A stretch of DNA of 34,871 nt from Methanobacteriota archaeon (GTDB lineage: Archaea > Thermoplasmatota > Thermoplasmata > Methanomassiliicoccales > Methanomethylophilaceae). A program made the translations under genes and the position numbers. The notes below the pieces were generated by a model. It did no database searches and was not told the DNA's origin. It saw only the letters and a list, made by a program, of their open reading frames with translations. Location of the stretch: the NCBI GenBank assembly GCA_012719315.1, contig JAAYAP010000011.1, forward strand, positions 1 to 34,871, in the 5' to 3' direction. Positions 11,662-33,983 of this stretch are shown one piece after another; position 1 is the first letter of the stretch; each line of letters opens with the position of its first letter.

Positions 11662-11717
11662 GGACGGTCAATGCGTTCCGCGGATTAAACCTTCGGCGGC
11701 GGATGGCGGCGGATGGC

Positions 11718-11732
11718 GGATATATGTATATT
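11718..11732 (+). promoter_or_regulatory. Putative TATA-box promoter of the ATPase/TOPRIM operon
   Basis: GGATATATGTATATT, AT-rich island ~25-35 nt upstream of the ATG at 11755. Confidence 0.45.
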
Positions 11733-11754
11733 ACCGCGAAGCGATACCTCCCGC

Positions 11755-12792: not shown

Positions 12793-13646
12793 TCGAGCGG
12801 CTGACGGCGTCGGACATCGCCAACGAGGTCTCGATGATGCGTTCGGCCTTCAAAGGCACCTTCGTCGTCGTCGAGGGGGTCACCGACAGCCGCCTCTACG
12901 GCAAATTCATCGATCCAGAGGGGGTGATGGTGCTCATCGCCCACTCCAAGGACAACGTCAGGCGCTCGGTGATCGAGTCGCGGACCAACCGCAGGGACCT
13001 CAGGATCATCGGGATCATGGACCCCGACCTGGACCGGCTCAACGGCAGGACCTATCCCATGCCGCTCTTCCTCACCGACAACCGCGACCAGGAGGGCATG
13101 ATCCTGGCGTCGAGGGCCTTGGACGACCTGCTGACCGAGTACGCCGACCAGGCGCTGCTGAAGTCGTTCGAGGACAAGCACGGGCCGGTGCGGGAGGCGA
13201 TCGCTCGTTCGGCGGCGCCGATCGGGCTGCTGATGCACATCTCGCGATGCGACGGGTTGAAACTGTGCTTCAAGGACATGGATTACCGCTCGTTCATCGA
13301 CCCGCGCACGCTGGAGCTCGACATGCAGAGGATGGTGGAGGAGGTCATCTCGCTGTCCAAGGACCCGAACATCGGCCGGAAGGACGCATTGTCGAGACTG
13401 AAACGCGAGCTGAAGCACCTCGAGGACCCCTGGATGGCGGTGCGGGGGCACGACGCCGTCGAGATCCTCACCATCGGCCTGGCCGAGGTCTTCGGCTCGT
13501 ACAACTCCTACGGCATCAAGCACGGCCAGGTGGCGGGCTCGCTGCGGCTGGCGTTCTCCTACGATTACTTCGCCGACACCGGGCTGTACGGCGACACCTC
13601 CGAATGGAGCCGCAAGACCGAGAACCCGTTGTGGCTCAGACGTTGA
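12789..13646 (+). CDS. DUF4435/TOPRIM-like protein (PARIS AriB-like candidate)
   Basis: 4-bp ATGA overlap with upstream ATPase gene. TOPRIM-like motifs: FVVVEGVTDSRLYGKFI (Glu motif), IIGIMDPDLDRLNG (DxD motif), LTDNRDQEGMILASRALDDLL (DUF4435-like). Confidence 0.75.
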   Translation: MIERLTASDIANEVSMMRSAFKGTFVVVEGVTDSRLYGKFIDPEGVMVLIAHSKDNVRRSVIESRTNRRDLRIIGIMDPDLDRLNGRTYPMPLFLTDNRDQEGMILASRALDDLLTEYADQALLKSFEDKHGPVREAIARSAAPIGLLMHISRCDGLKLCFKDMDYRSFIDPRTLELDMQRMVEEVISLSKDPNIGRKDALSRLKRELKHLEDPWMAVRGHDAVEILTIGLAEVFGSYNSYGIKHGQVAGSLRLAFSYDYFADTGLYGDTSEWSRKTENPLWLRR

Positions 13647-13881
13647 GGTCCAGGTCCTCGCGGACCGCGGTCCCGGCGGCGTTCTCGGCGATCGTCTGCA
13701 CCCGGCGCTCGCTCTCCTCGAGTATCCGCCGGCAGTGGTCGCGAAGCGCGATCGCCTCCTCGTAGATGCCCAGGCTCTCGTCCAGGTCCAACCCGCCCGC
13801 CTCCAGCCGTTTGACCATCGCCTCGAGCGCGGTCATGCTCTCCTCGAAACCCATCTCCTCGATTTTCTTCTTCCCGTTCAT
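13636..13881 (-). CDS. xseB: Exodeoxyribonuclease VII small subunit
   Basis: 81 aa; GFEESMTALEAMVKRLEAGGLDLDESLGIYEEAIALRDHCRRILEESERRVQ is the canonical XseB pattern. Confidence 0.93.
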   Translation of the reverse strand: MNGKKKIEEMGFEESMTALEAMVKRLEAGGLDLDESLGIYEEAIALRDHCRRILEESERRVQTIAENAAGTAVREDLDLNV

Positions 13882-15140
13882 CTCGATCTCACATCCTTGA
13901 CTTCCGCGTCGACCGTGCCGTCGCGCATGCGCACGGCGATCGTCTCGCCCCTGCCGATCGATGCCGCCGAGGTCAGCGCCCGGCCGTGCGCGTCGACGAC
14001 CATCCCGTAGCCTCTGCCCAGCACCTCGTAGGGGCTGAGCGCGTCCAGGCGCCCGGCGGCCGCCTCCAGCCTCGACGCGCGGATCGGGACCAGGTCCCGT
14101 GCCGCGCGCTCCAGCATCGACGCCGCGGCCGTGTACCGGCCGCGCATCCTCACGACGCGGTCGCGGAGCACCGCGTCGAGGCGGTCCGAGAGGCGGTCGG
14201 CCTCCAGGGACCGCATCGCCACCAGCTCGGCCGCCCGCCGCGGCGACAGCGAGGTGTCGGCCCTGCCGAAGCGGGCGCGCATCCGCAGCAGGGTCCGCTC
14301 GACGGCGGCGCCGGCGCGGACCAGGCAGCCGTCGGCCCGGCGCGACAGGTCGTGCCTGTCGGCCAGGACGATCTCGGCCGCGGCGGTCGGCGTCGCCGCC
14401 CGCACGTCCGCGACCAGGTCGGCCAGGGTGAAATCCGATTCGTGGCCGACGGCGGAGACGGTCGGGACCGTCGAGGCGGCGATCGCCCGCACCACGACCT
14501 CCTCGTTGAAGGCCCAGAGGTCCTCGGCCGACCCGCCCCCGCGCCCGACGATGATGACGTCGACGCCGGCGCGGTCGAGCAGGGCGATCCCGGCCGCGAT
14601 CGATTCCGCCGCCCCCTCGCCCTGGACCTTGGCCGGGGCCAGCAGGAGGTCGGCCGGGAACCGGCGGCCGGCGGTCACCACCATGTCGTGGATGGCCGCC
14701 CCCGACGGCGAGGTGACGATCCCGACGGTCTTCGGATAAAGCGGCAGCGGCCGTTTGCGGGACGCGTCGAACAATCCCTCGGCGCGCAGCCTAGCCTTCA
14801 ACTCCTCCAGCCTGGCGTACAGGTCGCCCCGTCCGCCGCGCCGCGCCGTCCTGGCGATGAACTGGTAGCTGCCGCGTTCGACGTAGAGGTCGATGCTGCC
14901 GAACAGCGCCACCTCCAGGCTGTCGGTCAGCTCGAAGCCGATCCTGGCGGCATCGGCGCGGAACAGCACGCAGCGCAGCTCGCTGCCGGCATCCTTCAGC
15001 GTGAAGTAGCTGTGGCCCGACTGGTACCTCTTGAAATTGGAGACCTCGCCGGCCACCCAGAGGTCGTTGACCTCGCGGGCCGTCCCCAGTATGCCTTTGA
15101 CACGCGTGTTCAGCTGCGTGACGGTGATCGTCTCTTCCAT
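13878..15140 (-). CDS. xseA: Exodeoxyribonuclease VII large subunit
   Basis: MEETITVTQLNTRVKGILGTAREVNDLWVAGEVSNFKRYQSGHSYFTLKDAGSELRCVLFR (OB fold), VGIVTSPSGAAIHDM, IIVGRGGGSAEDLWAFNEE, SAVGHESDFTLADLVADVRAATPTAAAEI. ATGA overlap with xseB. ORF-track start (15410) judged too long. Confidence 0.94.
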   Translation of the reverse strand: MEETITVTQLNTRVKGILGTAREVNDLWVAGEVSNFKRYQSGHSYFTLKDAGSELRCVLFRADAARIGFELTDSLEVALFGSIDLYVERGSYQFIARTARRGGRGDLYARLEELKARLRAEGLFDASRKRPLPLYPKTVGIVTSPSGAAIHDMVVTAGRRFPADLLLAPAKVQGEGAAESIAAGIALLDRAGVDVIIVGRGGGSAEDLWAFNEEVVVRAIAASTVPTVSAVGHESDFTLADLVADVRAATPTAAAEIVLADRHDLSRRADGCLVRAGAAVERTLLRMRARFGRADTSLSPRRAAELVAMRSLEADRLSDRLDAVLRDRVVRMRGRYTAAASMLERAARDLVPIRASRLEAAAGRLDALSPYEVLGRGYGMVVDAHGRALTSAASIGRGETIAVRMRDGTVDAEVKDVRSR

Positions 15141-15252
15141 CACCGCGGATACGGGGTGCATCGGTAATAGAGTTTCGGCGTCCCCGTCCCCGTGCCGGCA
15201 TGGTATATTATACCGCGACGGGCGTATATCGGGACCGGGAGGAGATGCGAGG

Positions 15253-15735
15253 ATGACTTCGACCTGCCCGCACTGCGGGGTCGCCGTACCGTCCGACTGC
15301 GGGAGATGCCCCAGATGCTTCAGGGACATCGACATCGAGGCGCAGCGCCGTCGCGGCGCCGACGGCGCCGAGTACACGATCGTCGAGTCCGGGTCCCGCC
15401 GGGAGCGCACACGCCGGGAACGGCCGGAGAAGCGGCCGTTGAGCAGCCGCGCCGTCCTGCTGCTGGCGACGCTGCCCGCATTGTTCGGGGTCCTGGGGCT
15501 GGGGCAGATCGTCCGCGACCGCCGCGACGCCGTCGGCTTCTACTTCCTGCTGATCGGGCTGATCCTCTTCATCCCGTCGGTGCTCCTGGTCACCGACACC
15601 TGGGCGGGCGGCATCACCACCGGCCTGCTGAGGGTGTCGGCCTTCGTCCTGCTGATGGGAGCCTACCTGCTGACCGCGCTGGTGTCGCTGGCGGACCTGT
15701 ACTTCGGCTCGCTCTTCAGGTCGATGAGGCTCTGA
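15253..15735 (+). CDS. Zinc-ribbon membrane protein of unknown function
   Basis: MTSTCPHCGVAVPSDCGRCPRCF (two CXXC knuckles) followed by about three hydrophobic segments; SD-like GGAGATGCGAGG upstream. Confidence 0.75.
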   Translation: MTSTCPHCGVAVPSDCGRCPRCFRDIDIEAQRRRGADGAEYTIVESGSRRERTRRERPEKRPLSSRAVLLLATLPALFGVLGLGQIVRDRRDAVGFYFLLIGLILFIPSVLLVTDTWAGGITTGLLRVSAFVLLMGAYLLTALVSLADLYFGSLFRSMRL

Positions 15736-15744
15736 GCCGAGGCG

Positions 15745-16314
15745 TCAGTACTTGCCTTTGTCGATCATGTGGAACATCAGCGCCGCCGACATCCGCGCCA
15801 GGTCGCCGGCGCGTCTGCCGTTCCTCAGTGACGGGTCGCCGCCCTTGATCAGCCTGCGGTAGGCCTTGCGGATGATGTCGGGTTCGTCCTGGGGATGCTT
15901 GCAGCGGAGGCTGATCGGCATCCGCGCCGAGATCGACGGCATCACCGTGGTCCGATGGGTGATGTCCCACGGGGCGCAGGTCATGTACCTGCCGAACTCC
16001 TGACGCGCATCGTAGCAGGCGATGCTCTCCCCTTCGATGATCCCCATCACCCTGCCGACCACGTCGGCCTCGGCCTCCCCGGCGTAGATCGCCTCGCCGG
16101 TGATGCCTGCGGCCTCGGAGAGGTAGTCGAGCTTGGGCTTGCCGAGTTTGCGGGGATCGTAGAAGATCAGGCTCTCGCAGACCAACTCGCTCGTGCGCGC
16201 GTCGAGGTCGGCCCTGCAGACGGCGATCTCGATGATCTCGTCGTACGGGAAGCCGTTCGGACCCGTGGCGACCGCTTGGATGATGTGGACCTCTTCGCTC
16301 ATGACACGGTCCAT
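15745..16314 (-). CDS. DnaQ/DEDDh exonuclease-like protein with degenerate active site
   Basis: 189 aa aligning by eye with the DnaQ-like protein at 24572-25213 (VHIIQAVATG / VYVLDTETTG; YDARQEFGRYM / YNTGYDFGRFL; AYRRLIKGGDP..LARMSAALMFHMIDKGKY / AYRTILGDEDP..DARMASHIMIAMHDAGLY) but lacking the catalytic D-E and H. Confidence 0.6.
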   Translation of the reverse strand: MDRVMSEEVHIIQAVATGPNGFPYDEIIEIAVCRADLDARTSELVCESLIFYDPRKLGKPKLDYLSEAAGITGEAIYAGEAEADVVGRVMGIIEGESIACYDARQEFGRYMTCAPWDITHRTTVMPSISARMPISLRCKHPQDEPDIIRKAYRRLIKGGDPSLRNGRRAGDLARMSAALMFHMIDKGKY

Positions 16315-16454: not shown

Positions 16455-19124
16455 ATGAGGAGGGCCAAGGGCATCGACGCCCTGTACGAGGAGGTCAGGG
16501 ACTGCGACATGGTCATCACCAACGACGCCCCGCTGGCGACGGCGCTCGACGCCAGGGTCGACCGGGCCATGCTGGGCGGCTTCGCCCGCACCCCGCGGCA
16601 GATCGCCGCCGAGGAGGCGGTCCGCGTGCTCGGCAGAGGCGTCATGGGCGACCTGGGGATCATTGCCGCCATCGCCGACGAGACCGGTTTCGACTTCAAG
16701 TACGTGCACGGCGAGCTGGAGAACATCCGCACGATCCGCAGGTACCGCGAGAACCCGGGGGATTTCCTCTACACCGACTCCGCCCGGGAGGTGCTCCGCT
16801 CGTTCGAGGCCCTGCCGACGATCGAGAAGGTGATGGCCGCCTACGATCCCTCCGAGAGCCTCCTCTTCAAGTCTAAGAAGCGCGTCGCCGTCATCGGCCT
16901 CGACCTCTTCGACGACCTCGACAAGCATTTCGTGCCCGCGGACTTCGTCGATGTCGACATGTTCGAGGCGGGCGAGTACGCGATCGGCACGATCCACCAG
17001 ATCGGCAACGACCGGCAGATCGCCGACGCCGTCGTCGACCTCATCGATGCCGAGGCGGCCGAGGACTTCGCCGTCGTCATCGACACCGAGGGCCCGATCG
17101 CCGACGCCGTCCGGTCGGCGCTCTACCGCAAAGGCGTCCCGTTCAAGAACCTGATGGCGGTCAAGGACCTGGCGCAGATACGCGATTACCTGCGGTTCCT
17201 GGAGCTGGCCTTGGGTTTCGACACGCTCCGGGTGCGGCAGGCCCGGGAGCTGTTCTCCAACTACGGCGGCTACCTGCGTCCCGATCTGGACGCCTACCTG
17301 CTGTCCAAGATCCTGCCCCGCGTCCGCGACGAGACCGCGGTCGGGCTGGCCGCGGTCATGCGGGACGTGCGCTCGCTGACCTTCGGCGAGGTCATGGAGG
17401 CGGTGGTGCACCCGCAGCAGCGTCCGCAGGTGCGCATCCTCCTCGACGAGCTGGCGATGACCGGCCGCAAGGTCACCGCCGCCCTGGTCGGCGAGACGGC
17501 CTACGCCGTCAACAACGTCGCCGACCTGCATCACAACGAGCAGACGCCCGACGACGAGCGGCGCGGGGTCCTGCTGGCCGACTGCAACCGCTCGGTCTAC
17601 ATCGACCGGCCGGCGGTGATCTTCGCCGGCATCGGGCCCGAGTGGTCCCCGGCCATCACCGGCAGGGAGTACATCGACCGCGAGGCCGAGGCCGAGAAGG
17701 ACGCGCTGCGGTTCACGGTGCTCATGCAGCAGGGCTGCGTCCGCATCTACGCCGTCAACCTGATCAGGGAGGGCCGTCCGGCCCGTCCCTGCCCCACGTT
17801 CAAACGCGTGTGCGCCGACTCCGGGATCGAGGTGTTCGGCGACATCTGCGGCGAGGCCGGCCTGGCCAGGGGCACCTGGCTCGCCGAGGCCGAGCCGGTG
17901 CCCGCATCGGTCGGGAGGACGGAGGCGGTCGAGGAGCCCGACGAGGGCTGGCTGTTCTCCAAGAGCAGCTACAACCGCTTCAGGCAGTGCCCCCGGGCCT
18001 ACATGTTCGGCGACCTGGTCAGGACGCCCGATTCGGAGCACACGGTGTTCGGCAGTGTGGTCCACGAGTTCGCCGAGTTCCAGCTCTGCTACCCGGAGCT
18101 GGTGGACGCCAAGGGCGTCGGCCACTACCTGGACCTGATCGAGGACCGTTACTCGGGCATCTCCTGCGAGCAGATGCGGCCGCTGGACCGCACCGAGCTG
18201 CTGGTGAGCATGGACAGCACCATCCGCTATCTGGACCGGGTGGACCGCGCCGGCATCGGGTTGGACCGCCGCAACGCCGACCGCCGCTACCCCAACGAGC
18301 TGATGGCCGCCGAGGGCTGCGAGATGTACAGCGGCGCCACCGAGCACACGCTGTCGTCCGCGCCCGACCGCATGACCGGCAACTTCGACCTGGTCGTCGG
18401 CAACACCATCGCCGATTACAAGACCGGCAAGGCCGTCTCCCTGAAGGGGATACGCGACCGGATGGTCCGGCCGCGGCAGCGGTACGTCGAGTTCCAGCCG
18501 CTGTTCTACCTGGCATTGCTGCACCGCGAGCGCGGAGGGGACTGCGTGTTCGAGCAGGTCTATGTCAGGGACCGCGTGCTCGAAGCGCTCGAGGGTCCCG
18601 CCGGCCGCCGCATCGAGGACGGCATCCGCCGCATCGAGCTGGTCGACCGGGACTTCGACGCGTACGTCCGCGACGACGGCAACCCGGGGCTGGACTGGCT
18701 GTCGTCCAGGATGCGGCCGCTGTTCCTGGAGCACTGGCCGGCGGTCGCCGACCTGCTCCTGGAGCACCGGGAGGACTGGAGCGATTGGGTCGCCGGGGAT
18801 CCGCCCGAGGCGGTCGTCGGCGCCGCGATCGCCGCGCTCGGGCTCAGGGACAACGCCACCAACCGCAAGGCGGTCAGGCCGGCGGTCAAGAAGGCGGTCG
18901 ACAGCATGGCCGGCGGCATGGTCCTCGGCCGGAACGTACTGGTCATCCCGCGCGACACCGTCGCGGACTTCAGGGAGCGCGTGGCCGCCGACCACCGCCT
19001 GGCCTCGGCGATGGCGGTCACCGCCTTCCCGCCGCGGCCGCCGGCCGGCTGCCGCGGATGCGCTTACACCAGGGCCTGCACCTTCGCCGGCGTCACCGAC
19101 GGGGAGGATGACGAGGATGAGTGA
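16455..19124 (+). CDS. AddB-like PD-(D/E)XK nuclease with Fe-S-type cysteines
   Basis: C-terminal SKSSYNRFRQCPRAYMFGDLVR ... FDLVVGNTIADYKTGKAVS ... FQPLFYLALLH ... CRGCAYTRACTF: RecB-family nuclease core flanked by one upstream and three downstream cysteines, as in AddB/Cas4. No Walker A seen in the N-terminal part. Confidence 0.8.
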   Translation: MRRAKGIDALYEEVRDCDMVITNDAPLATALDARVDRAMLGGFARTPRQIAAEEAVRVLGRGVMGDLGIIAAIADETGFDFKYVHGELENIRTIRRYRENPGDFLYTDSAREVLRSFEALPTIEKVMAAYDPSESLLFKSKKRVAVIGLDLFDDLDKHFVPADFVDVDMFEAGEYAIGTIHQIGNDRQIADAVVDLIDAEAAEDFAVVIDTEGPIADAVRSALYRKGVPFKNLMAVKDLAQIRDYLRFLELALGFDTLRVRQARELFSNYGGYLRPDLDAYLLSKILPRVRDETAVGLAAVMRDVRSLTFGEVMEAVVHPQQRPQVRILLDELAMTGRKVTAALVGETAYAVNNVADLHHNEQTPDDERRGVLLADCNRSVYIDRPAVIFAGIGPEWSPAITGREYIDREAEAEKDALRFTVLMQQGCVRIYAVNLIREGRPARPCPTFKRVCADSGIEVFGDICGEAGLARGTWLAEAEPVPASVGRTEAVEEPDEGWLFSKSSYNRFRQCPRAYMFGDLVRTPDSEHTVFGSVVHEFAEFQLCYPELVDAKGVGHYLDLIEDRYSGISCEQMRPLDRTELLVSMDSTIRYLDRVDRAGIGLDRRNADRRYPNELMAAEGCEMYSGATEHTLSSAPDRMTGNFDLVVGNTIADYKTGKAVSLKGIRDRMVRPRQRYVEFQPLFYLALLHRERGGDCVFEQVYVRDRVLEALEGPAGRRIEDGIRRIELVDRDFDAYVRDDGNPGLDWLSSRMRPLFLEHWPAVADLLLEHREDWSDWVAGDPPEAVVGAAIAALGLRDNATNRKAVRPAVKKAVDSMAGGMVLGRNVLVIPRDTVADFRERVAADHRLASAMAVTAFPPRPPAGCRGCAYTRACTFAGVTDGEDDEDE

Positions 19125-21993
19125 CCTCAACGACGCGCAGCGGAGGATCGCCGAGCAGCTGGAGGGGATGATCGTCGTCGACGCCGGACCCGGCACCGGC
19201 AAGACCAAGACGGTGGTCGAGCGGTACCTGAACATCATCCGCTCCGGCGTCGACCCCGAGGACGTCGTCCTGCTGACGTTCACCAAGAACGCGGCCGGCG
19301 AGATGGAGGACCGCATCAAGGCCGGACTGCACCGGGAGGGGATGGAGGACAAGGACCTGAACATGCGGGTGGGGACCTTCGACTCGTTCTGCCGCACCGC
19401 GTTGATGGAATCGCCGGATGCGGTGAGCGGGTTCCTCGGCATCCGCGAGAAGCTCACCCGCGGCGCGGTGCTGGTCGAGAACGACACGCTGAACCGCGCC
19501 TATTTCTCGGACTTCATGGACCGCTTCCTCGCCGACCGCGCCGAGGACTACGGCGACGATGCCATCGTCGCCAGCCAGAACCACGGCGGCATGTACGACC
19601 TGATCGGGAAGCTCATGGCCCGCGGCATCATCCCCCTGCGCGACGGCTGGTTCGGCGCCGACGCCGACCGGGCGCTGACCGGCGACACCGACGCGCTGAC
19701 GGCCGAGCTGTCGCGGCTCGCCGCCGACGAGGAGCAGGCGGACAGGATCCGCAAGGCCCTCGAGAAGGAGGGGATGCCGACGCCCGCCGGCCTGTCCGTC
19801 GCCGGGATCCCCGACCGGCTCGTCGACGCGGCGGTCCATGAGGACCGCACCATGCTGCTGAAGCTGGTCCACGACGTCTACCACGGCTTCATCGCGAGGT
19901 CGGTGGCCGACGACCGGCTGACCTTCGGCCTGACCGCGGTGCTCGCCTTCGTCGCCCTGTACGGCAACGACCGCACCCGCGAGCGCCTGCGCTGCAGGTA
20001 CCTGATGGTCGACGAGTTCCAGGACACCAACGGCAGCCAGCTGATGATCTCGCTGATGCTGCTCAGCGAGCCGAACCTCTGCGTGGTGGGCGACTGGAAG
20101 CAGGGCATCTACGGCTTCAGGTACGTGTCGACCGACAACATCCTCCGCTTCCACGAGCGCAGCCGGGAGCTGACGCGGTTCCTCAACGACGACCGCGAGC
20201 GCGTGCCGTTCGCCGTCGAGGACCGGCCGAAGCTGCCGTTGGACATCAACTACCGGAGCTCGCAGCTGGTCATCGACACGGCGTTCGCCGCACTCGGCAT
20301 CCCCGGGACCGCAGACGAGGAGGTGTCCGTCGACGGCATCACCGGCATCAGGGCGCACAGGACCTGCCTGGACCGGCACACGGCGGCCGAGTGCGTCCGC
20401 ACCTCTTCGCACGAGGAGGAGGTGCGGGAGGTCCTGCGGAGGATCGAACGCTATGTGAACGACGCGCGGTACGCGGTCGTCGAGGACGGAGGCGGCACGC
20501 GGCCCGCGGGCTACGGCGACATCGCCGTCCTCTGCAGGACCACCGCGCTCGCCCGCGAGGTGGCCATGGCCGCCGAGGCGGCCGGCATCCCCGCCTACCT
20601 GCAGGGCGACATCGACGTTATGGGCTCGCGCGAGGGCAAGCTGCTGCTGGCCTGGCTGCGGTACGTCAACAACGAGCGGGACCTGTGGGGGCTGTGCACG
20701 ATCCTCGCCGACCGTGGCTGCACCCTGGCCGAGATGCGGCGGATGACAGGTCCCGGCGCGTCCTGCCCGCCGCCTGCCGACGTGACCGCGCTGAGGCGCG
20801 AGCTGCTCGGCAGGAAGCGGAGGATCACCGGCCTGATCGCAGGGGTCTTCGACCATTACGGGCTGAACAACGATGTGGCGCACACCATCCTCTCGGTGGT
20901 CTCCGCGGCGCACCGGGGCTCGCTGCTGACCGTCTCCGACATCATCACGATGATCGAGGAGGACATGGAGCGGGGCACGGCGTACAGCGTCGAGATGCCG
21001 CTCGACCGCCATGCGGTCACGGTGCAGACCATGCACAAATCCAAAGGACTGGAATATCCGGCGGTGATCGCCGCCGGCTTCAACAGGGGATCGTTCCCCA
21101 ACCTCCGCGGCGACACCTCCGTCTACGTCTTCGACGACCTGACCGGCATCCGCTGCCGTCGCCTGGTGCACCGGGCCGAGGCCGGCGGGGCGGTGATGGT
21201 CCCCTCCTGGAAGACGGCGCTGGTGCAGGCCGCGCTCCCGCGCGACTACAGCGAGGAGCGCCGCCTGATGTTCGTGGCGCTCTCGCGCGCCAAGCAGTAC
21301 CTGACCGTCACCTGCCGGGACCCGTCCCCGTTCTACAAGGGCCTGGAGGCGGTCATGGAATGCACCGCCCCGGGGGAGGGCCCGGTCGCCGCGGCCGCAT
21401 CGGCGGCCGCCGCCGAGACGGCCCCGCGCCCCGTCATCGGGCCGTACGCGCGCCGGAGGCGGAACATCGGCGTGCACGACATCCTCGTCTTCGACGGCGA
21501 GGAGGCGCCCGCGGCAGGGGCCGACCAGGTCTGCGGCAAGGGCATGGAGTACGGCACCAGGGTGCACGAGGCGGCGGAGCTGCTCGCCCGCGGCCTGCGG
21601 CCCGGCGGAGCCTACGCCGGCATGCCGGAGCTGGAGGCGGTCGCGGAGGTGCTGGAATCGGTCTCCGGCGCCGTCTACGTCGAGCCCGAGCTCGACTGCG
21701 CCCTGCCGTTCAACGACCTGGGCGTCACCCTGAGAGGCGTCATCGACCTCTACGCCGAGTTCGCCGACCGCATCGAGATCCACGATTACAAGACCGACGT
21801 CTCCGACCGCTTCGAAGGCGAGTACATGCTGCAGCTGAGCGTGTACGCGCATGCGGCATCCGCCGCCGCCGGCAAGCCGGCGCGGTGCGTGATCGACTAC
21901 GTCTCGCGCGGCATCCGCCGGGAGTTCGCGCCCCTGGACATCGGGATCGTCAGGGACCGCCTGGTCAACTCACCCATATATATGGATAAGTGA
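19117..21993 (+). CDS. AddA-like UvrD/Rep-family helicase with C-terminal PD-(D/E)XK nuclease
   Basis: Walker A DAGPGTGKTKTVVERYL, LLTFTKNAAGEM, YLMVDEFQDTNGSQL, GDWKQGIYGFRYVS, TMHKSKGLEYPAV, EERRLMFVALSRAKQYLTV; C-terminal GVIDLYAEFADRIEIHDYKTD. Alternative in-frame ATG at 19108. Confidence 0.9.
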   Translation: MSDLNDAQRRIAEQLEGMIVVDAGPGTGKTKTVVERYLNIIRSGVDPEDVVLLTFTKNAAGEMEDRIKAGLHREGMEDKDLNMRVGTFDSFCRTALMESPDAVSGFLGIREKLTRGAVLVENDTLNRAYFSDFMDRFLADRAEDYGDDAIVASQNHGGMYDLIGKLMARGIIPLRDGWFGADADRALTGDTDALTAELSRLAADEEQADRIRKALEKEGMPTPAGLSVAGIPDRLVDAAVHEDRTMLLKLVHDVYHGFIARSVADDRLTFGLTAVLAFVALYGNDRTRERLRCRYLMVDEFQDTNGSQLMISLMLLSEPNLCVVGDWKQGIYGFRYVSTDNILRFHERSRELTRFLNDDRERVPFAVEDRPKLPLDINYRSSQLVIDTAFAALGIPGTADEEVSVDGITGIRAHRTCLDRHTAAECVRTSSHEEEVREVLRRIERYVNDARYAVVEDGGGTRPAGYGDIAVLCRTTALAREVAMAAEAAGIPAYLQGDIDVMGSREGKLLLAWLRYVNNERDLWGLCTILADRGCTLAEMRRMTGPGASCPPPADVTALRRELLGRKRRITGLIAGVFDHYGLNNDVAHTILSVVSAAHRGSLLTVSDIITMIEEDMERGTAYSVEMPLDRHAVTVQTMHKSKGLEYPAVIAAGFNRGSFPNLRGDTSVYVFDDLTGIRCRRLVHRAEAGGAVMVPSWKTALVQAALPRDYSEERRLMFVALSRAKQYLTVTCRDPSPFYKGLEAVMECTAPGEGPVAAAASAAAAETAPRPVIGPYARRRRNIGVHDILVFDGEEAPAAGADQVCGKGMEYGTRVHEAAELLARGLRPGGAYAGMPELEAVAEVLESVSGAVYVEPELDCALPFNDLGVTLRGVIDLYAEFADRIEIHDYKTDVSDRFEGEYMLQLSVYAHAASAAAGKPARCVIDYVSRGIRREFAPLDIGIVRDRLVNSPIYMDK

Positions 21994-24587
21994 TTCTGGA
22001 CCCGATGGCACCGGAGGGGCTCAGCGAGCGCGAGGTCGGGGAGAGACGGGCCGACGGCAGGGTCAACTCGGCCGAGTCGCCCGTGAGCCGGAGCTACACC
22101 GACATCCTGGTCAAGAACCTGTGCACCTCGTTCAACCTGATCCTCCTGATCCTGGGTCTGGCGCTGGTCTTCTTCGAGGAGTACATCAACGCGGTGGCGG
22201 CGACGGCGATCATCCTGATCAACGTCCTCGTGTCGACCGTGCAGGAGATGCGGGCCAAACGCAGGCTGGACCGGATCGCGCTGCTCCTCAGGCCCAAGGC
22301 CACCGTCGTCAGGGGCGGCGAGGAGCGGACGATCGACCCCGCCGGCATCGTCATGGACGACGTCGTGCTCATGGTCCCTGGCGACCAGGCCCAGGTCGAC
22401 GGGGTGGTCATCGACTGCCGCTCCTTCGAGATGGACGAGTCGCTGCTCACCGGCGAATCCAGCACCCGCCGGAAGCAGCCGGGGGACACGGTGCACTCCG
22501 GCGCCTTCTGCGTGACCGGCGAATGCCACTACCGGGTGACGGCGCTCGGCGAGGACACCTTCGCCGCCAAGATGCTCTCGAGCGCCAAGCGGTTCGACAA
22601 GAAGAGGACGCCGCTGCAGCGCGAGACGGCCTCGGTGACCGAGATGCTGATGGGCATCGCCTTCTTCTACCTGGGCATCGTCGTCGTCATGAACCTGCTG
22701 GCGAAGAAGCCGGCGGTCGATTCGCTGATCCAGGCGGTGATCATCCTCGACATCGTGCCGATCGCGCTGTTCCTGCTGATCACGCTCACCTACATGATCG
22801 CCGCCGTCCGCATGGCCGACAGCGGCGTCCTGCTGCAGAACGCGTCCTCGGTGGAGGCGATGAGCCACGTGGACACCGTGTGCATGGACAAGACCGGCAC
22901 GATCACCACCAACAACCTGCTGTTCGACAACGCCGTCTACTACACGGACGAGGCGGAGGCCCGGGAGGCGGTGCGGGCGATCGTCTCGGCCACGACCGGC
23001 CGCAACAACACGGTCAAGGCCCTGGAGCGGGAGTACGGCACCGAGGCCGTCGAAACGGTCGCCGAGGTCCCCTTCTCGTCGCAGCGCCGTTTCAGCGCCG
23101 TGCAGGTGCGGCGGCCGCAGGGCGACCTGACCGTGTTCATGGGCGCCTACCCCGTGCTCGCCGCCGCCCTGGCCGACGCCGGCATCGGCGGGACGGTCGC
23201 GGCCTGCGCCGCCCGGGGCCTGAGGACGGTCGTCGTCGGCATCGCCGACGGCCCCCTCTCCGAGGATCCCGAGGCCGAGCTCCCGCCGCTGCGCCCGGCC
23301 GCCGTCATCGGCATCAGGGACGAGATCAGGCCCGACTGCAGGGAGATCATCGGCAGGTTCATCGACGGCGGCATGGAGCTCAAGGTGATCTCCGGCGACG
23401 ATCCCGAGACCGTCGAGGCGATCTTCACCCAGGCGGGGATCCCCGGCGGGAGGGTCGCCGTCTCCGGCGACGACCTCGCCCTCATGGACGCCGACGGACG
23501 GAGGGAGGCGGTGCTCCGGTCCGACATCCTCGGCCGCATGCGCCCCGACCAGAAGGAGGAGGCCGTGAGCATCCTCAAGGCCGACGGCAGGTACGTCGCC
23601 ATGGTCGGCGACGGCGTCAACGACGTCAGGTCGATCAAGGCCGCCCAGGTGGGCGTCGCCCTGCAGAGCGGCTCGGGCGCGGCCAGGGGCGTGGCCGACA
23701 TGGTGCTGATGGACGACCGCTTCGACGCATTGCCGAAGGCGATCGTCGAGGGCAAGCGGACCGTCTCCGGCATGCGCGACATCCTGAGGCTCTACCTGAC
23801 CCGCAACTTCGTGCTCGCCATCCTGGTGGGCATCCTGCTGCTGATCTTCCGCCGGATGCCGATGCTGCCGATCCAGAACTCATACTACGCGTTGATCACG
23901 GTCTCCTTCGCCGCCTTCCTGATGACCCTGTGGGCGAAGCCGTCCGACGACCGGGAGCGGGTGCTGCCCGGGGTCCTGAGGTTCTCGGTCCCGATGGCGA
24001 TGACGATCGCGACCTTCGCCATGGGCATCTACGCGCTCTTCTTCTTCGGGGTGCCGGCCGGACTGTTCCCGGAGGTCTCCTTCGATCTCACCGCCGACGC
24101 CTTCTTCTCGCTCTTCCCCGACGCCACCCGCACCGACCTGATCAGCCACCTGTCCGGCCTGACCGACGCGCCCGACACCGTCGCCGTGCTCGCCGAGACG
24201 GCGGCGATGAACGCCATGCTGGTGTTCCTGGTCGTCGCCGGCATCCTGCAGCTGTTCCTCATCTACCCCCCGTTCGGGTTCATGAGCCGCGACCGGAGGC
24301 CCAAGCGCCGCATCCTGCCGATGCTGCTGGTGGTCCTCCTGTTCACCGTGATGGTCCTGTTCTACGGCTATCCCCCGCTCTCGGTCGGCGTGGCCTCGGT
24401 GATGTACCTGCCCGACGCCGTCTACCTCCTGGTCCTGGCGGTCTCGGCGGCATGGTTCGCCGTCGCCGTCGTCCTCAACCGGAGCGACCGCAGGTCGATG
24501 CTGGTCGAGTTCTCCGAACGCTCCTTCGAGAAGCAGCTGCGCCGGGAGCTCGAGAAAGAGGGCAGGCAGGATCAGCGCGGACGCTGA
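21990..24587 (+). CDS. P-type cation-transporting ATPase
   Basis: GTG start overlapping previous stop (GTGA); alternative ATG at 22005. LLTGESSTRRKQPGD, VCMDKTGTITTNNL (phosphorylation site), MVGDGVNDVRSIKAAQVGVAL, multiple TM segments. Confidence 0.92.
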   Translation: MILDPMAPEGLSEREVGERRADGRVNSAESPVSRSYTDILVKNLCTSFNLILLILGLALVFFEEYINAVAATAIILINVLVSTVQEMRAKRRLDRIALLLRPKATVVRGGEERTIDPAGIVMDDVVLMVPGDQAQVDGVVIDCRSFEMDESLLTGESSTRRKQPGDTVHSGAFCVTGECHYRVTALGEDTFAAKMLSSAKRFDKKRTPLQRETASVTEMLMGIAFFYLGIVVVMNLLAKKPAVDSLIQAVIILDIVPIALFLLITLTYMIAAVRMADSGVLLQNASSVEAMSHVDTVCMDKTGTITTNNLLFDNAVYYTDEAEAREAVRAIVSATTGRNNTVKALEREYGTEAVETVAEVPFSSQRRFSAVQVRRPQGDLTVFMGAYPVLAAALADAGIGGTVAACAARGLRTVVVGIADGPLSEDPEAELPPLRPAAVIGIRDEIRPDCREIIGRFIDGGMELKVISGDDPETVEAIFTQAGIPGGRVAVSGDDLALMDADGRREAVLRSDILGRMRPDQKEEAVSILKADGRYVAMVGDGVNDVRSIKAAQVGVALQSGSGAARGVADMVLMDDRFDALPKAIVEGKRTVSGMRDILRLYLTRNFVLAILVGILLLIFRRMPMLPIQNSYYALITVSFAAFLMTLWAKPSDDRERVLPGVLRFSVPMAMTIATFAMGIYALFFFGVPAGLFPEVSFDLTADAFFSLFPDATRTDLISHLSGLTDAPDTVAVLAETAAMNAMLVFLVVAGILQLFLIYPPFGFMSRDRRPKRRILPMLLVVLLFTVMVLFYGYPPLSVGVASVMYLPDAVYLLVLAVSAAWFAVAVVLNRSDRRSMLVEFSERSFEKQLRRELEKEGRQDQRGR

Positions 24588-25213
24588 TCGCGCGCGAAGG
24601 GGTAGAGCCCCGCATCGTGCATGGCGATCATGATGTGCGACGCCATCCTGGCGTCCGACAGGGCGCGGTGGTCCTGCACCCCGTGGATGCCGGCGGGGTC
24701 CTCGTCGCCGAGGATGGTGCGGTAGGCGACGTCGAGACGCGGCCACCGGTAGCCGTCGTTGTAGTAGAACGGTTTCAGCTTGCAGACCTCGGCGGCGGCC
24801 AGCATGATGTCGCGGCACTCCCTGAAGGCCCCGCACAGGTTCCAGGGCTCCTTGAAGAGGAACCTGCCGAAATCGTATCCCGTGTTGTAGGAGGTGACCC
24901 TCCCGCCGCCGATGACGGACAGCACCTCCTCGCGCACCTCCGGGAACGGCTTCCCCTTCCGCACCATGTCGAGCGTCATGTCGGTGTTCTCGAAGATCCA
25001 GGCGTTCTTACGGTAGTCGTCCCAGGCGTCGACGTCGTGGCCGACCACGGCGGAGTAGGCCTCGGTCACCGAGCCCTCGTCCAAGTCGACCAGGCAGATG
25101 CCGATGTCGACGACCACGTCCTTGGGCGCGCCGTGCAGGCCGGTGGTCTCGGTGTCGAGCACGTAGACCTCGCGCTTGCGCGGGCGCTCGTCGAAGGAGA
25201 AGAGGTCCTTCAT
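24572..25213 (-). CDS. DnaQ-like 3'-5' exonuclease (DEDDh)
   Basis: VYVLDTETTGLHGAPKDVVVDIGICLVD, TSYNTGYDFGRFL, VQDHRALSDARMASHIM: ExoI, ExoII and ExoIII motifs. Confidence 0.87.
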   Translation of the reverse strand: MKDLFSFDERPRKREVYVLDTETTGLHGAPKDVVVDIGICLVDLDEGSVTEAYSAVVGHDVDAWDDYRKNAWIFENTDMTLDMVRKGKPFPEVREEVLSVIGGGRVTSYNTGYDFGRFLFKEPWNLCGAFRECRDIMLAAAEVCKLKPFYYNDGYRWPRLDVAYRTILGDEDPAGIHGVQDHRALSDARMASHIMIAMHDAGLYPFARDQRPR

Positions 25214-25800
25214 GCGGACCCCCTCCCCGCCGCGACGACGGATCCGTACTCCCTCCAGCAGAGCCAGGTCAGCACCGCCGCGGCCGACAGGGCCGCGGCC
25301 GCGACGGCCGCCGCGGGGTCGGCTTCCGGCGACCGGCCGGCGGGCGACGGCGTCACGGGCATCTCCTCCGGATCCTCGTCGGCCTGAGGATACGGGTCGT
25401 AGCCGTCGGGGTACCCGACGACGCTGTGGAAGTAGATCTCGAGGTCGCGGTCGACGTTGTCGACGGTGAAGTACGAATCGTAGCCGATCAGCACCGGGTC
25501 GTTGGCGGACGTGACGGTGCCGCCCCGGGTGCCGGTCGCGACGTCGTATCCGTAGAAGTGGATCCCCGACGCCGAGAGGTCGTACCGCTCGGAGTGGGCG
25601 ACGAAGGTGAGGCTGCCGCCCCTGTCGATGCGCACGACGTTGCCGCCGACGGGGATGCCGTCGATGAACGTGATGTCGATGCCGTCGACCGGCGCGAAAC
25701 GGACCGTGACCGTGTCGGATGCCGCATCCGCGGGGAGTGCGCACAGGCTCACGGCCGTGAGCAGGAGCGCCGATGCGATCAGCAGGGGCCGCTTGTCCAT
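25210..25800 (-). CDS. Secreted/membrane-anchored hypothetical protein
   Basis: N-terminal signal-peptide-like MDKRPLLIASALLLTAVSLCALPADAAS, beta-rich ectodomain, low-complexity DP/E/P linker, C-terminal hydrophobic anchor. ATGA overlap with the downstream exonuclease gene. Confidence 0.7.
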   Translation of the reverse strand: MDKRPLLIASALLLTAVSLCALPADAASDTVTVRFAPVDGIDITFIDGIPVGGNVVRIDRGGSLTFVAHSERYDLSASGIHFYGYDVATGTRGGTVTSANDPVLIGYDSYFTVDNVDRDLEIYFHSVVGYPDGYDPYPQADEDPEEMPVTPSPAGRSPEADPAAAVAAAALSAAAVLTWLCWREYGSVVAAGRGSA

Positions 25801-25824
25801 GCTCCGGGGAGAGCGTATGCATCT

Positions 25825-28820: not shown

Positions 28821-30011
28821 ATGGCAGACTTCAGATTCATCCACTGCGCCGACCTGCATCTGGGCGGGAGGGGGCGCGGCATCCGGCGGGGCGGAGAAGG
28901 CATCAACAGGCGCATGTCCGAGGCGGCGATGGAATCGTTCGCGAGGATCGTCGACCGCGCCGTCGCCGAGGATGCCGATCTGATGGTGATCGCCGGCGAC
29001 GTCTTCGACGGGACCAACGAGACGCCGGCCACGCGTCACGCGTTCGCCGAGCAGCTGGGGAGGCTGGATGCGCCGGTGTTCGTCTGCACCGGCAACCACG
29101 ACCGCAGGACGGCCTGGTCGGACACCATCCCCTACCCCGGCAACGTGCATGTCTTCGGCCGCGACCCGCAGAGCCTGGTCGTCGGCCTCCGCGGCGGTAG
29201 CGTCGAGGTGATCGGCAGGAGCTTCCCCGACGACGGCGGGTCCTTCGATCCCCTGGAGGGGATCCGCGGCCGGGAGGGCATGTTCTCGATCGCCGTCCTG
29301 CACTGCACCGTCGACGCCGCGGGCGCGGACCCCGACTACGGCCCCTGCCGGCTCGCCGACATGCGCAACAGGGGCGTGGATTACTGGGCGATCGGGCATA
29401 TCCACAAGCGGACGGTGGTGTCCGAGGACCCGTACGTGGTGTACCCGGGCAGCATCCAGGGCCGCAACCGCAAGGAGACCGGCCCCAAGGGGGCGTACCT
29501 GGTCTCGGTGACCGGCGACCGGGTGACCGGCCTGGAGTTCTTCCCGACCCAGAGCATCCTCTGGGAGGACGTCGTCTGCGACATCGCCGGCCTGGACATG
29601 GAGGGTCTGATCGCGGCATTGGAGCGATCGATCGGCAGGGGGACGATGGTCAACCTGACCCTGACCGGCGCCGGCCCGCTGGACGCGCCGCTGCGTCTCG
29701 GCGGTGACGGCTTCATCCATACTGTCGAACGGCGGACGGGGGCGGTCGTCGCCGACCTGAGCCTGAGGACGCATCCGCTGCGGGACCGCGAGGCCGCGGC
29801 CGGCGGCCGCGACCTGAGGGCGCATCTGATCGTGGCTTCCGACCGCACGGCGTCGTCGGACCGTCAGGCGTTGATCGACACGATCTGCTCGACGAGGCAG
29901 TCCGCGGAGATCAGGCATGTGTTCGAGGCGCTGGACGACGATCGGCTGCGAGAGCTGGTGCGCGACGCGGAAGCCTATGTCATCGACAAGCTGACGGAGG
30001 CGTCGGGATGA
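28821..30011 (+). CDS. Mre11/SbcD (YhaO-like) metallophosphoesterase DNA repair nuclease
   Basis: FRFIHCADLHLGG, LMVIAGDVFDGTNE, VFVCTGNHDR, IAVLHCTVD, YWAIGHIHKR: calcineurin-like nuclease motifs as in SbcD/YhaO. Confidence 0.88.
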   Translation: MADFRFIHCADLHLGGRGRGIRRGGEGINRRMSEAAMESFARIVDRAVAEDADLMVIAGDVFDGTNETPATRHAFAEQLGRLDAPVFVCTGNHDRRTAWSDTIPYPGNVHVFGRDPQSLVVGLRGGSVEVIGRSFPDDGGSFDPLEGIRGREGMFSIAVLHCTVDAAGADPDYGPCRLADMRNRGVDYWAIGHIHKRTVVSEDPYVVYPGSIQGRNRKETGPKGAYLVSVTGDRVTGLEFFPTQSILWEDVVCDIAGLDMEGLIAALERSIGRGTMVNLTLTGAGPLDAPLRLGGDGFIHTVERRTGAVVADLSLRTHPLRDREAAAGGRDLRAHLIVASDRTASSDRQALIDTICSTRQSAEIRHVFEALDDDRLRELVRDAEAYVIDKLTEASG

Positions 30012-32143
30012 GGATCCGCGCGGCGAGGATCGGGTCGTTCGGCGGCATCAGGGACCTGGACCTGGAGTTCGGCGACGGGCTGACCGCGGTGTTCGGAGAG
30101 AACGAGACGGGGAAGACCACCGTCCTGGAGTTCGTCAGGGGGACGCTCTTCCCCGACCGCAGGAACCGGTACCCCGCACGCGCCAGGACCGACCGCGGGG
30201 AGCTGGACATCGAGACGGCCGCCGGCGAACGGCGCACGCTGGTGCGCGAAGCCAACAAGGTCTCCGGCGACGCGGGACTGCCGGCGGGCATCGACTCCGA
30301 CACGTTCCGCTCGGTGTTCGCGATGGCGCCCGAGGACCTGAGGGATGCCGGTATCATCTCGTCGGGGGAGATCAAGAGCCGTTTCCTGACCGTGCCCGGG
30401 GGCGAGGCCCTGCCGGAGGTCATCAAGGACGTGGAGGGGAGGATGCGGGAGCTGCTCAGCCCCGAGAGGCGGTCGGAATCCACCGAGATCGCCAAGGTCC
30501 GCAAGAAGCTCGGGGAGAACGCCGAAGCGCTCGCGGACGCGGTCGCCGACGATGCCGGGTACGGGGCCATGCACGCCCGGCTGGAGGCGCTGCGCGCGGA
30601 GCATGCGGCGGCGGCGGAGGCGCTGAAAGCCAACGCGGAGCTGATGAAGCTGAAGGGACTGCGCGATTCGCAGAAGGAGAACAGGGAGCTGCTGGAGGGA
30701 TTGAGGGAGGAGCACGGGAGGCTCGGGGAGTCGGCGGCGGTCGCCGACGGCGATCCCGGGGAGCATGCCCGGTTGAAGGCGCTGCTGACGGATGCCGCCG
30801 AGGCACGCCGCGAGGCGGGATCGCGTGCAACGGGCCGGCTCCTCGGCCTCGATCCGGACAGGCTGATCGGATGCGCGGCGGGGATCGAGGGACTCGGGCA
30901 GACGGTGACGCGACGCAGCGATCTGAACGCGGAACTCCGGCGGCTGACGGCGGCCCGCGGGGCCGCGGACGGGACCGCGACCGGCACACGGGCGCGCAGG
31001 AGGACCATGCTCGCCGCCGCGGCCGGCGCACTGGCGGCATCCGTGTTGATGGGGATCGTCATCGAGCCGCTGATCGCCGTCATCGGGGCGGCGGTCGCCG
31101 CCGGCATCGCCGCCATGGCCTTCGTCGGCGGCAGAGGCGCGTCCGCGGCCGACGACGCCGCGGCACGCGAGAGGATCGACCGCATCCGCGCAGAGCTCGC
31201 GGCGACGGATTCAGAATGGGAGGCGCTCGCCTCCGCCTTGGGCCGCACGGGCACGCCGGAGGCCGAAGCGGCCCGGCTGGAGGACGCATTGCGTGCGGCA
31301 CGCGGGCTGCGGGACGCGCAGGAGGCCGAGGAGAAGCGGCGCAGGGACCTGGACGCCTTCCTCGCGCGCTTCGGCTCGGAGGAGCGGTTCGCGGAACTCG
31401 TCGGGATGAAGGACGAACGCAAGCGGCTGGCCACGCGGATCGAGACGCTGACCGCGAGCATCGGGGCCGCCGGCTGCGCCGACGCCGAGGGGGACGAGCC
31501 CGAGGACCACGACCTGCTCCTCGGCCGCTACGGGGAGCTGGGCGACGCGGTCAACGAGGCCGCGCGCGAGCTGCGGGCGCTCCGCGAGGACAACGCCACC
31601 GAGAAGCTGCTCGACCGCCGCGCGGACCTGGAGGCGGAGATGCGGGACCTGGCATGCGAGTGGGCGAGGCTGTCCCTGGCCTCGTCGCTGATCGGCGAGG
31701 CCTGCGACGCCGTCTACTCCGACCTGCGGCCCGGGGTGATCTCGACCGCCGACAGGCTGCTGGAGCGGATGACCGACGGGAGGTACGGCATCGAGATGGA
31801 TCCGCGCGACAACGAGATCAGGGCGGTCTCGGGGCCGTCCGGCAGGAAGAAGGGCGAATGGAGCACCGGCCTGGGCGACCAGGTGCTGCTGGCGGTCAAG
31901 CTGGCGGTGGCCAAGGAGCTCTCCGGCGACGAGCCGCCGCCGATCCTCCTCGACGACGTGCTGCAGATGTTCGACCACGGGCGCAGGGAGGCGGCCTGCA
32001 GGGCGATCGCCGACCTCGCCGAGGACATGCAGGTGATCTTCTTCACCTGCGACCGCGCCACGGCCTCGATGCTCGAGGCCACCGGCCGCTGCAAGCTGGT
32101 CGAGCTGCATCCCGGGATCCGGCCCCGACCGCAAACGATTTAA
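30008..32143 (+). CDS. Rad50/SbcC-like (YhaN-like) SMC-type ATPase with central hydrophobic hairpin
   Basis: MRIRAARIGSFGGIRDLDLEFGDGLTAVFGENETGKTTVLEFVRGTLF (Walker A), C-terminal LGDQVLLAVKLAVAKEL...PPILLDDVLQMFD (signature/Walker B); coiled coil interrupted by LAAAAGALAASVLMGIVIEPLIAVIGAAVAAGIAAMAFVGG. ATGA overlap with the nuclease gene. Confidence 0.87.
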   Translation: MRIRAARIGSFGGIRDLDLEFGDGLTAVFGENETGKTTVLEFVRGTLFPDRRNRYPARARTDRGELDIETAAGERRTLVREANKVSGDAGLPAGIDSDTFRSVFAMAPEDLRDAGIISSGEIKSRFLTVPGGEALPEVIKDVEGRMRELLSPERRSESTEIAKVRKKLGENAEALADAVADDAGYGAMHARLEALRAEHAAAAEALKANAELMKLKGLRDSQKENRELLEGLREEHGRLGESAAVADGDPGEHARLKALLTDAAEARREAGSRATGRLLGLDPDRLIGCAAGIEGLGQTVTRRSDLNAELRRLTAARGAADGTATGTRARRRTMLAAAAGALAASVLMGIVIEPLIAVIGAAVAAGIAAMAFVGGRGASAADDAAARERIDRIRAELAATDSEWEALASALGRTGTPEAEAARLEDALRAARGLRDAQEAEEKRRRDLDAFLARFGSEERFAELVGMKDERKRLATRIETLTASIGAAGCADAEGDEPEDHDLLLGRYGELGDAVNEAARELRALREDNATEKLLDRRADLEAEMRDLACEWARLSLASSLIGEACDAVYSDLRPGVISTADRLLERMTDGRYGIEMDPRDNEIRAVSGPSGRKKGEWSTGLGDQVLLAVKLAVAKELSGDEPPPILLDDVLQMFDHGRREAACRAIADLAEDMQVIFFTCDRATASMLEATGRCKLVELHPGIRPRPQTI

Positions 32144-32414: not shown

Positions 32415-33983
32415 ATGATCGTAGATCCAAACGCAATGAAATATCTGATAAAGGCGAAGATAACGGCCGACGGCATCGTCGAGAAACCGGATGTCGTCGG
32501 AGCCATCTTCGGACAGACGGAAGGCCTGCTCGGCGACGACCTGGACCTCAGGGACCTCCAGAAATCCGGCCGCATCGGCCGCATCGAAGCGGAAGTCGCC
32601 TCCAAGGGCGGCAAGTCCGAGGGCGTGGTCTATATGGCCTCCTCGCTCGACCAGGTCGAGACGGTGATCCTCGCCTCCGCGCTCGAGACCATCGACCGCA
32701 TCGGGCCCTGCAAGGCCGCCATCCGCGTGCTGAGCATCGAGGACGTCCGCATCACCAAGAGGGAGAAGGTCGCCGATCGCGCCAAGGAGCTGCTCAACGA
32801 CCTGATCGCGCAGTCGAAGGACACCTCCTACGACATCGCGCAGAACATCAGGCAGGCGGTGCAGGTCGAGGAGATCGTCTCGTACGGCAAGGACAAGTGC
32901 CCCGCCGGACCCGCGGTCAAGGACTCCGAGGCGATCATCATCGTCGAGGGCAGGTCCGACGTGCTCAACCTGCTCAAGGCCGGCATCAAGAACGCGATCG
33001 CCGTCGAGGGCACCAACGTCCCCAAGACGGTCCAGGATCTCTCCCGCGAGCGGGTCACCACGGCTTTCACCGACGGCGACCGCGGCGGCGAGCTCATCCT
33101 CAGGGAGCTCTTCCAGACCGCCGAGATCGACTTCGTCGCCCGCGCTCCGCGCGCCCACGAGGTCGAGGAGCTCACCCCCAAGCAGATCGCCAAATGCCTG
33201 CGCAACAAGGTGCCCGGCAACCAGTACATGGAGATGAACAAGCTCAGCTACGCGGAGAAGGAGCTCAACGAGACGGCCGAGCGCGACATCCGCGAGGGCG
33301 AGCGCGCCGCATCCCGCCGCAACGGGCGCGAGAGCCGCGAGACGGCCCCCGAGGGCCGCCGCAACGGCGCCCGCGACGATAAGGAATCCAAGGAGCGCGA
33401 GGACGCCCGCCGCGAGCGCAGGGAGCGTTTCAGCACCGAGAACGTCGACAAATACAGGAAGAGGACCGCCCGCGAGGCCGAAGAGGCGGCGAAGGGCGGG
33501 GACGAGGCCGACGACGCCAAGCACGCCGAGCCCGTCGAGGAACCGGTCGCGGAGGTCAAGAAGACGACCGCCCGCAAACCGCGCGAGAAGGCCGAACCCG
33601 AGGACAAGCCGCGGGAGAAGGCCGAGACCGAGGACAAGCCCGCCAGGACGCTCAGGGCCAAGAAGGACAGGAACACCAAGACGCTGTCCCCCGAGCAGGA
33701 GGTCTACAGGGACATGCTCCTCGACATGTCGTCCACCCACAACGCCAAGGTGCTGTCCGACGACAACTCCGTGATCAGGGAGGTGGCGGTCAAAGGGCTG
33801 GTCAACTCGCTGAAGGAGGATGCCGAGGGCGTCTCGAAGATTGTCTTCGACGGCGTGATCTCCCAGAGGATCCTCGACGTGTCCGCCGAGAAGGGCATCG
33901 GCATCGTGGTCGGCACCCGCAAGGGCAACATCACCAAGATGCCGGCCGACATCGTGATCTGGACCAAAGAGGACCTCTACTGA
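32415..33983 (+). CDS. dnaG: Archaeal DnaG-like primase
   Basis: KYLIKAKITADGIVEKPDVVGAIFGQTEGLLGDDLDLRDLQKSGRIGRIEA; TOPRIM IIIVEGRSDVLNLLKAGIKNAIAVEGTNVP...AFTDGDRGG; NQYMEMNKLSYAEKE. Confidence 0.95.
   Translation: MIVDPNAMKYLIKAKITADGIVEKPDVVGAIFGQTEGLLGDDLDLRDLQKSGRIGRIEAEVASKGGKSEGVVYMASSLDQVETVILASALETIDRIGPCKAAIRVLSIEDVRITKREKVADRAKELLNDLIAQSKDTSYDIAQNIRQAVQVEEIVSYGKDKCPAGPAVKDSEAIIIVEGRSDVLNLLKAGIKNAIAVEGTNVPKTVQDLSRERVTTAFTDGDRGGELILRELFQTAEIDFVARAPRAHEVEELTPKQIAKCLRNKVPGNQYMEMNKLSYAEKELNETAERDIREGERAASRRNGRESRETAPEGRRNGARDDKESKEREDARRERRERFSTENVDKYRKRTAREAEEAAKGGDEADDAKHAEPVEEPVAEVKKTTARKPREKAEPEDKPREKAETEDKPARTLRAKKDRNTKTLSPEQEVYRDMLLDMSSTHNAKVLSDDNSVIREVAVKGLVNSLKEDAEGVSKIVFDGVISQRILDVSAEKGIGIVVGTRKGNITKMPADIVIWTKEDLY
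33582..33641 (+). repeat. 30-bp imperfect tandem duplication inside dnaG linker
   Basis: CGCGAGAAGGCCGAACCCGAGGACAAGCCG / CGGGAGAAGGCCGAGACCGAGGACAAGCCC, encoding REKAEPEDKP / REKAETEDKP. Confidence 0.85.

Follow-up and report, generated by a model that had tools for sequence, protein, structure and literature searches.

The described helicase-nucleases closest to the locus analysed here are AddAB of Bacillus subtilis, whose genes lie in the order B-A, RecBCD of Escherichia coli, in which RecD is a second motor, and mycobacterial AdnAB, a heterodimer of helicase-nuclease subunits with intact helicase motifs in both. In archaea Mre11-Rad50 is regarded as the standard means of sensing breaks and starting resection, and together with HerA-NurA it is predicted to do the same job that we propose for our pair, namely 5' resection before RadA loading, using unrelated proteins. 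In those hyperthermophiles that have been examined, neither Mre11 nor HerA-NurA can be dispensed with (PMC7407445, PMC7776575). The window (the whole stretch of 34,871 nucleotides that was analysed) comes from an archaeon of the family Methanomethylophilaceae, order Methanomassiliicoccales, and carries two genes, the start of the second overlapping the end of the first by 8 bp (Table 1), which by fold, motifs and gene organization are an AddAB-like pair. Similar to B. subtilis AddAB (PDB IDs 3u4q and 4cei), which is the best structural match for both subunits, AddA joins a predicted motor to a nuclease and AddB a helicase-like fold to a predicted Fe-S nuclease. However, the window subunits share only about 10-16% identity with those of B. 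subtilis, are shorter (889 and 958 aa, the PDB chains having about 1120-1180 residues), belong to an archaeal host, and have lost the AddB Walker A that B. subtilis retains. RecB and RecC also match the window proteins structurally, and RecC too is an inactive helicase fold, but its nuclease-like domain is inactive (PMC1185551) whereas the nuclease site of the window AddB is intact, and there is no RecD-like gene next to the pair. AdnAB is likewise among the structural matches, although in the window pair only AddA has intact helicase motifs. Judged by these features, the window AddAB appears to be set apart from known AddAB both in sequence and by the loss of Walker A from AddB.

Fold and motifs of the two subunits

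The AddB-like protein consists of inactive, N-terminal SF1-helicase-like domains without Walker A and a C-terminal PD-(D/E)XK nuclease with a four-cysteine Fe-S pattern. Its sole Pfam match above cut-off is PDDEXK_1 (PF12705, E 3.8e-14, residues 501-875), it has no match in NCBIfam, and because searches of PDB sequences, with the protein singly and as a 52-row profile, did not find AddB, its identity is seen by fold comparison only. We found that an AlphaFold2 model built from 52 aligned sequences (mean pLDDT 87.2) has B. subtilis AddB chains as its top five Foldseek matches in the PDB (E 3.2e-11 for 3u4q_B to 1.3e-10), with alignments long enough to cover the protein end to end; UvrD, AdnA and RecC come after, and UvrD/PcrA helicase cores match too. 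The sequence-only reading had made its AddAB assignment depend on an AddB-like helicase fold in the N-terminal ~500 aa, and according to the model and Foldseek this half of the protein is predicted to have just such a helicase-like AddB/RecC fold. When compared with AddB and AddA, both subunits give moderate query-normalised TM-scores (0.45-0.61), as expected because these are multi-domain proteins at 10-16% identity.

The nuclease residues of AddB (H537, E630, D645, D654, K656, Q681 and Y685) are invariant in 52/52 aligned sequences and form a complete PD-(D/E)XK site. The cysteines flanking this core, first noticed in the window as a C..CXXCX5C pattern, prove to be real, with C512 and C866-x2-C869-x5-C875 kept in 50-51/52 sequences, and would hold a putative Fe-S cluster. 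The earlier observation that AddB has no recognisable Walker A holds across the alignment as well: all 52 sequences lack a Walker A or P-loop in their N-terminal half, and a conserved VITNDAPLATALN-type block stands in its place. As AddB is not the motor, we treat this loss as a variant feature; the related RecC does not have a Walker A either.

The AddA-like protein had been described from the window as a full UvrD-type helicase with a C-terminal nuclease, which agrees with its UvrD N- and C-terminal domains (PF00580, E 2.5e-41; PF13361, E 1.5e-23), its C-terminal PDDEXK_1 domain (E 3.1e-07) and its AlphaFold2 model (46 aligned sequences, mean pLDDT 87.7), for which Foldseek lists AddA first (4cei_A, E 4.3e-36) and then RecB and UvrD. 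Its Walker A, DEFQD motif and nuclease residues (H/D/D-x-K/Q/Y) are invariant in the 46 sequences. From the helicase and nuclease motifs of the two subunits, AddA is predicted to be the single motor of the pair, and AddA and AddB are both predicted to be nucleases. In NCBIfam the first match of the AddA-like protein is AddA of Gram-positives at 142 bits, below the cut-off of 708, and since AddB finds none, both proteins lie far from the named AddA and AddB families by sequence. The bacterial AddB-AddA organization proposed earlier is borne out, as B precedes A and each subunit has its own AddAB counterpart as best PDB structural match. In fact AddA directly follows AddB in nearly every locus long enough for both (archaea and Ignavibacteria), the two genes are adjacent or overlapping across Methanomethylophilaceae, and relatives could be traced to ~20% identity, so that chance is excluded.

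Distribution of AddAB and of the canonical resection genes

AddB is present in 98/102 Methanomethylophilaceae genomes (43/45 of those of high quality) and, within a survey of the order, in 20/20 genomes of this family against 1/41 from sister families, and a Rad51/RadA domain is found in 102/102 of the family genomes. Since the Pfam model of the Rad50 zinc hook was too insensitive, missing the Haloferax and Methanosarcina controls, we used full-length Rad50 and the neighbouring Mre11 and HerA as queries; in sister families these form a HerA-Mre11-Rad50 cluster (seen in locus L109). Strong matches to each of the three occur in 38/41 sister-family genomes, whereas with these sister-family queries canonical Rad50 was found in 0/102 Methanomethylophilaceae genomes, and Mre11 and the neighbouring HerA in 0/20 tested. 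The Rad50 query gave weak partial matches of at most 39 bits in 16/102 genomes of the family, and in one (G007) these adjoin an SbcD-like match, which suggests that SbcCD-type genes occur sporadically. NurA was detected in 1/61 genomes of the order, as a weak match. The sequence-only reading had called for a search of the genome for herA and nurA, and the outcome is divided: canonical HerA is absent, as are Mre11 and Rad50, but the gain of AddAB was not accompanied by a loss of NurA. Because NurA went undetected in 60/61 genomes of the order, it had probably been lost or had diverged before AddAB was gained, and we have given up the view that HerA-NurA as such was replaced by AddAB.

Nearly all named relatives belong to Methanomethylophilaceae, under the labels Methanomassiliicoccaceae, Methanomethylophilaceae or Thermoplasmata and including many gut MAGs; those beyond the family are five Ignavibacteria, one haloarchaeon, one Methanomicrobia MAG and one Bacteroidetes MAG fragment. 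Elsewhere in the phylum, outside the order, clean matches come from one family only (f32: G089, partial in G105). In the single sister-family genome with an AddB-like gene (L021, G004:C128:1580-3613, on a 7.7-kb contig) canonical Rad50, HerA and Mre11 are found elsewhere, reflecting either co-existence with AddB or contamination. Two family genomes that are at least 91% complete (G229 and G370) showed neither AddB nor Rad50, owing to assembly gaps or real loss. In an unrooted AddA tree the Methanomethylophilaceae, haloarchaea and Ignavibacteria form one group each with support of 100, and as the family AddA is thus a single clade, its sequences fit a single acquisition with vertical descent thereafter.

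Taken together, we think it quite probable that the two genes encode a compact and divergent AddAB, which acts as the main double-strand-break resection machine of Methanomethylophilaceae, replacing Mre11-Rad50-HerA and feeding RadA. On the basis of gene content this takeover is the best-supported explanation: AddB is near-universal in the family, canonical Mre11-Rad50-HerA is absent and RadA is present, and, moreover, the two proteins find AddB and AddA first in the PDB, the catalytic and Fe-S residues are conserved, and so is the neighbourhood across genera. The best reading of its history is that a divergent AddAB was acquired once, before the Methanomethylophilaceae radiated, and took over break resection, so that one repair engine seems to have been naturally exchanged for another. 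This is weakened by the fact that the contrast between presence of AddAB and absence of Mre11-Rad50-HerA, although strong, is essentially one event on the tree and not a repeated correlation, as well as by the SbcCD-like genes of some family genomes and by the two genomes more than 90% complete in which AddB went undetected. By analogy with bacterial AddAB, from which we infer enzymatic activity, polarity and regulation, the heterodimer would bind a duplex end, where AddA, as the only ATP-driven motor, would translocate 3'-5' and unwind the DNA. The AddA nuclease would cut the 3'-ended strand and the Fe-S AddB nuclease the 5'-ended strand, with the inactive helicase fold of AddB providing a scaffold and perhaps a site for Chi-like scanning, and a 3' tail would be left for RadA.

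Genes around the pair

We compared the neighbourhood in ten genomes from several genera and found that the same order recurs as far as the retrieved sequence extends: an AAA ATPase and its partner, XseA, a small RNase T-like protein, AddB and AddA, followed by a P-type ATPase, an RNase T exonuclease, CobQ, a metallophosphoesterase, an AAA_27 ATPase and DnaG.

Table 1. Coordinates of the AddAB-like pair and neighbouring features in the window, with the evidence for each assignment.
Feature	Coordinates	Strand	Evidence and remarks
xseB, exonuclease VII small subunit, 81 aa	13636..13881	-	TIGR01280 62.2 bits, cut-off 35
xseA, exonuclease VII large subunit	13878..15410	-	TIGR00237 429.6 bits, over cut-off; synteny
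Small DEDD/RNase T-like protein	15745..16314	-	Transcribed divergently from addB; cross-matches relatives' RNase T neighbour
addB-like gene	16455..19124	+	ATG 16455, stop 19124, 889 aa; open reading frame, Pfam, AlphaFold2 model, Foldseek, motif conservation
addA-like gene	19117..21993	+	ATG 19117, stop 21993, 958 aa; Pfam, NCBIfam, AlphaFold2 model, Foldseek, motifs
RNase T-type exonuclease domain protein	24572..25822	-	PF00929 E 7.2e-08
Mre11/SbcD-like metallophosphoesterase (YhaO-like)	28821..30011	+	PF00149 E 3.4e-16
YhaN-like/Rad50-like AAA_27 ATPase	30008..32143	+	PF13514 E 3.2e-11, PF13476 E 7e-10
DnaG-type Toprim protein	32415..33983	+	Toprim domains; synteny; end of conserved neighbourhood

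Beside AddAB (13636-15410, minus strand) the window encodes exonuclease VII, a bacterial-type enzyme whose XseA is kept there family-wide, and as XseB adjoins XseA this enzyme is complete. The small protein between XseA and AddB found no family match in Pfam. On the far side of exonuclease VII (11713-13646, plus strand) an AAA_21 ATPase overlaps a 285-aa protein without a Pfam match; the two are conserved as a pair in the family and resemble ATPase-effector pairs.

The metallophosphoesterase is divergent from archaeal Mre11, weakly like Mre11 structures (1ii7, E 4.2e-11) and below the SbcD and Mre11 cut-offs of NCBIfam (56 bits against Mre11 cut-offs of 500-600). Its partner ATPase has a hydrophobic stretch and no CxxC hook, and reaches at most about 18 bits with Rad50 models. 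We take this pair (28821-32143) to be like the bacterial YhaO/YhaN; it lies 7 kb from AddAB and is linked to it across several genera. Its sequences make it a candidate for residual Mre11-Rad50-like work, and that it could keep some of this role weakens the case for full replacement by AddAB. addBA, xseA and the yhaON-like pair all resemble bacterial-type repair genes, and that their linkage is conserved would also fit a two-step system overlapping with our favoured explanation, in which the phosphoesterase-ATPase pair cleans blocked ends in the manner of SbcCD and AddAB then resects. However, the phosphoesterase is too divergent to reach either the Mre11 or the SbcD cut-off, and the ATPase has a hydrophobic segment in addition to lacking the zinc hook, which makes their role speculative; we regard the two-step arrangement as possible but doubtful, and equally tentative is its implication that Methanomethylophilaceae possess a complete bacterial-style system.

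Haloarchaeal relatives and alternative functions

The AddB-AddA pair is also found on 33 haloarchaeal plasmids (all listed organisms being haloarchaea), and these pairs, like those of Ignavibacteria, are related to the window pair in sequence and share its gene order and its AddB Walker A loss. Mostly annotated as a PD-(D/E)XK nuclease and an ATP-dependent DNA helicase, the plasmid-borne pairs stand in varying contexts, near transposases, a DNA methylase or BREX-5 genes (loci L165, L166, L167, L169 and L170), whereas the Methanomethylophilaceae pair is core and has a fixed neighbourhood. In Salinigranum rubrum (L169) addB and addA are separated by an IS5 transposase gene. That the plasmid-borne pair looks accessory weakens the replacement reading and, along with the linkage of the metallophosphoesterase/AAA_27 pair in several genera, could mean that the AddAB-like pair is mainly a nuclease for defence or DNA degradation, which may also be true of the plasmid relatives, with break repair left to its Mre11-like/YhaN-like neighbours. 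We consider this unlikely, as in Methanomethylophilaceae the pair is near-universal, vertically inherited and fixed in its neighbourhood, unlike defence genes that come and go, and, moreover, among the PADLOC models none match AddB while AddA matches those of UvrD helicases only. No relatives were found among the phages and viral contigs searched, which counts against a defence role and led us to set aside a phage or viral origin of the pair. It is highly improbable that we are dealing with the UvrD-Cas4 type of helicase-nuclease of mesophilic archaea and bacteria, an identity that we rejected, since that type, although it too combines Cas4-like PDDEXK_1 domains with UvrD helicases, is a single fusion protein without a conserved partner (PMC5704561), whereas here two consistently paired subunits are each structurally closest to their own AddAB subunit.

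Extending the replacement of Mre11-Rad50-HerA by AddAB, we lean towards the wider view that a whole archaeal family dispenses with canonical Mre11-Rad50 and HerA-NurA, and processes ends for recombination with AddAB coupled to RadA, supported by a bacterial-type neighbourhood (exonuclease VII and the Mre11-like/YhaN-like pair), possibly with a Chi-like signal of its own. If true, the resection engine would be exchangeable while RadA stays, in common animal-gut methanogens without the canonical set, in which one could then study, in a naturally occurring case, whether a Rad51-type recombinase can take over from AddAB and whether organisms other than bacteria have Chi-type control. In the open-access literature, with subscription journals outside the search, we found no report joining Methanomassiliicoccales with AddAB or with this replacement, and a 2014 comparative genomics paper of the order makes no mention of Mre11, Rad50 or repair; the observation may nevertheless have been published, and these proteins could already form a group in orthology databases. 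An exploratory scan of octamer statistics, run without a positive control on 400 kb sampled each from three genomes (G036, G011 and G042), gave no Chi-like candidate, with a maximum z of 4.7 and none standing out in G036, and leaves room for a shorter or degenerate signal; the top words in G011 and G042 resemble pieces of repeat arrays. One single-contig Methanomethylophilaceae genome carries a second, diverged copy of AddB (L022, G054:C1:713406-716084), with 34% identity to that of the window.
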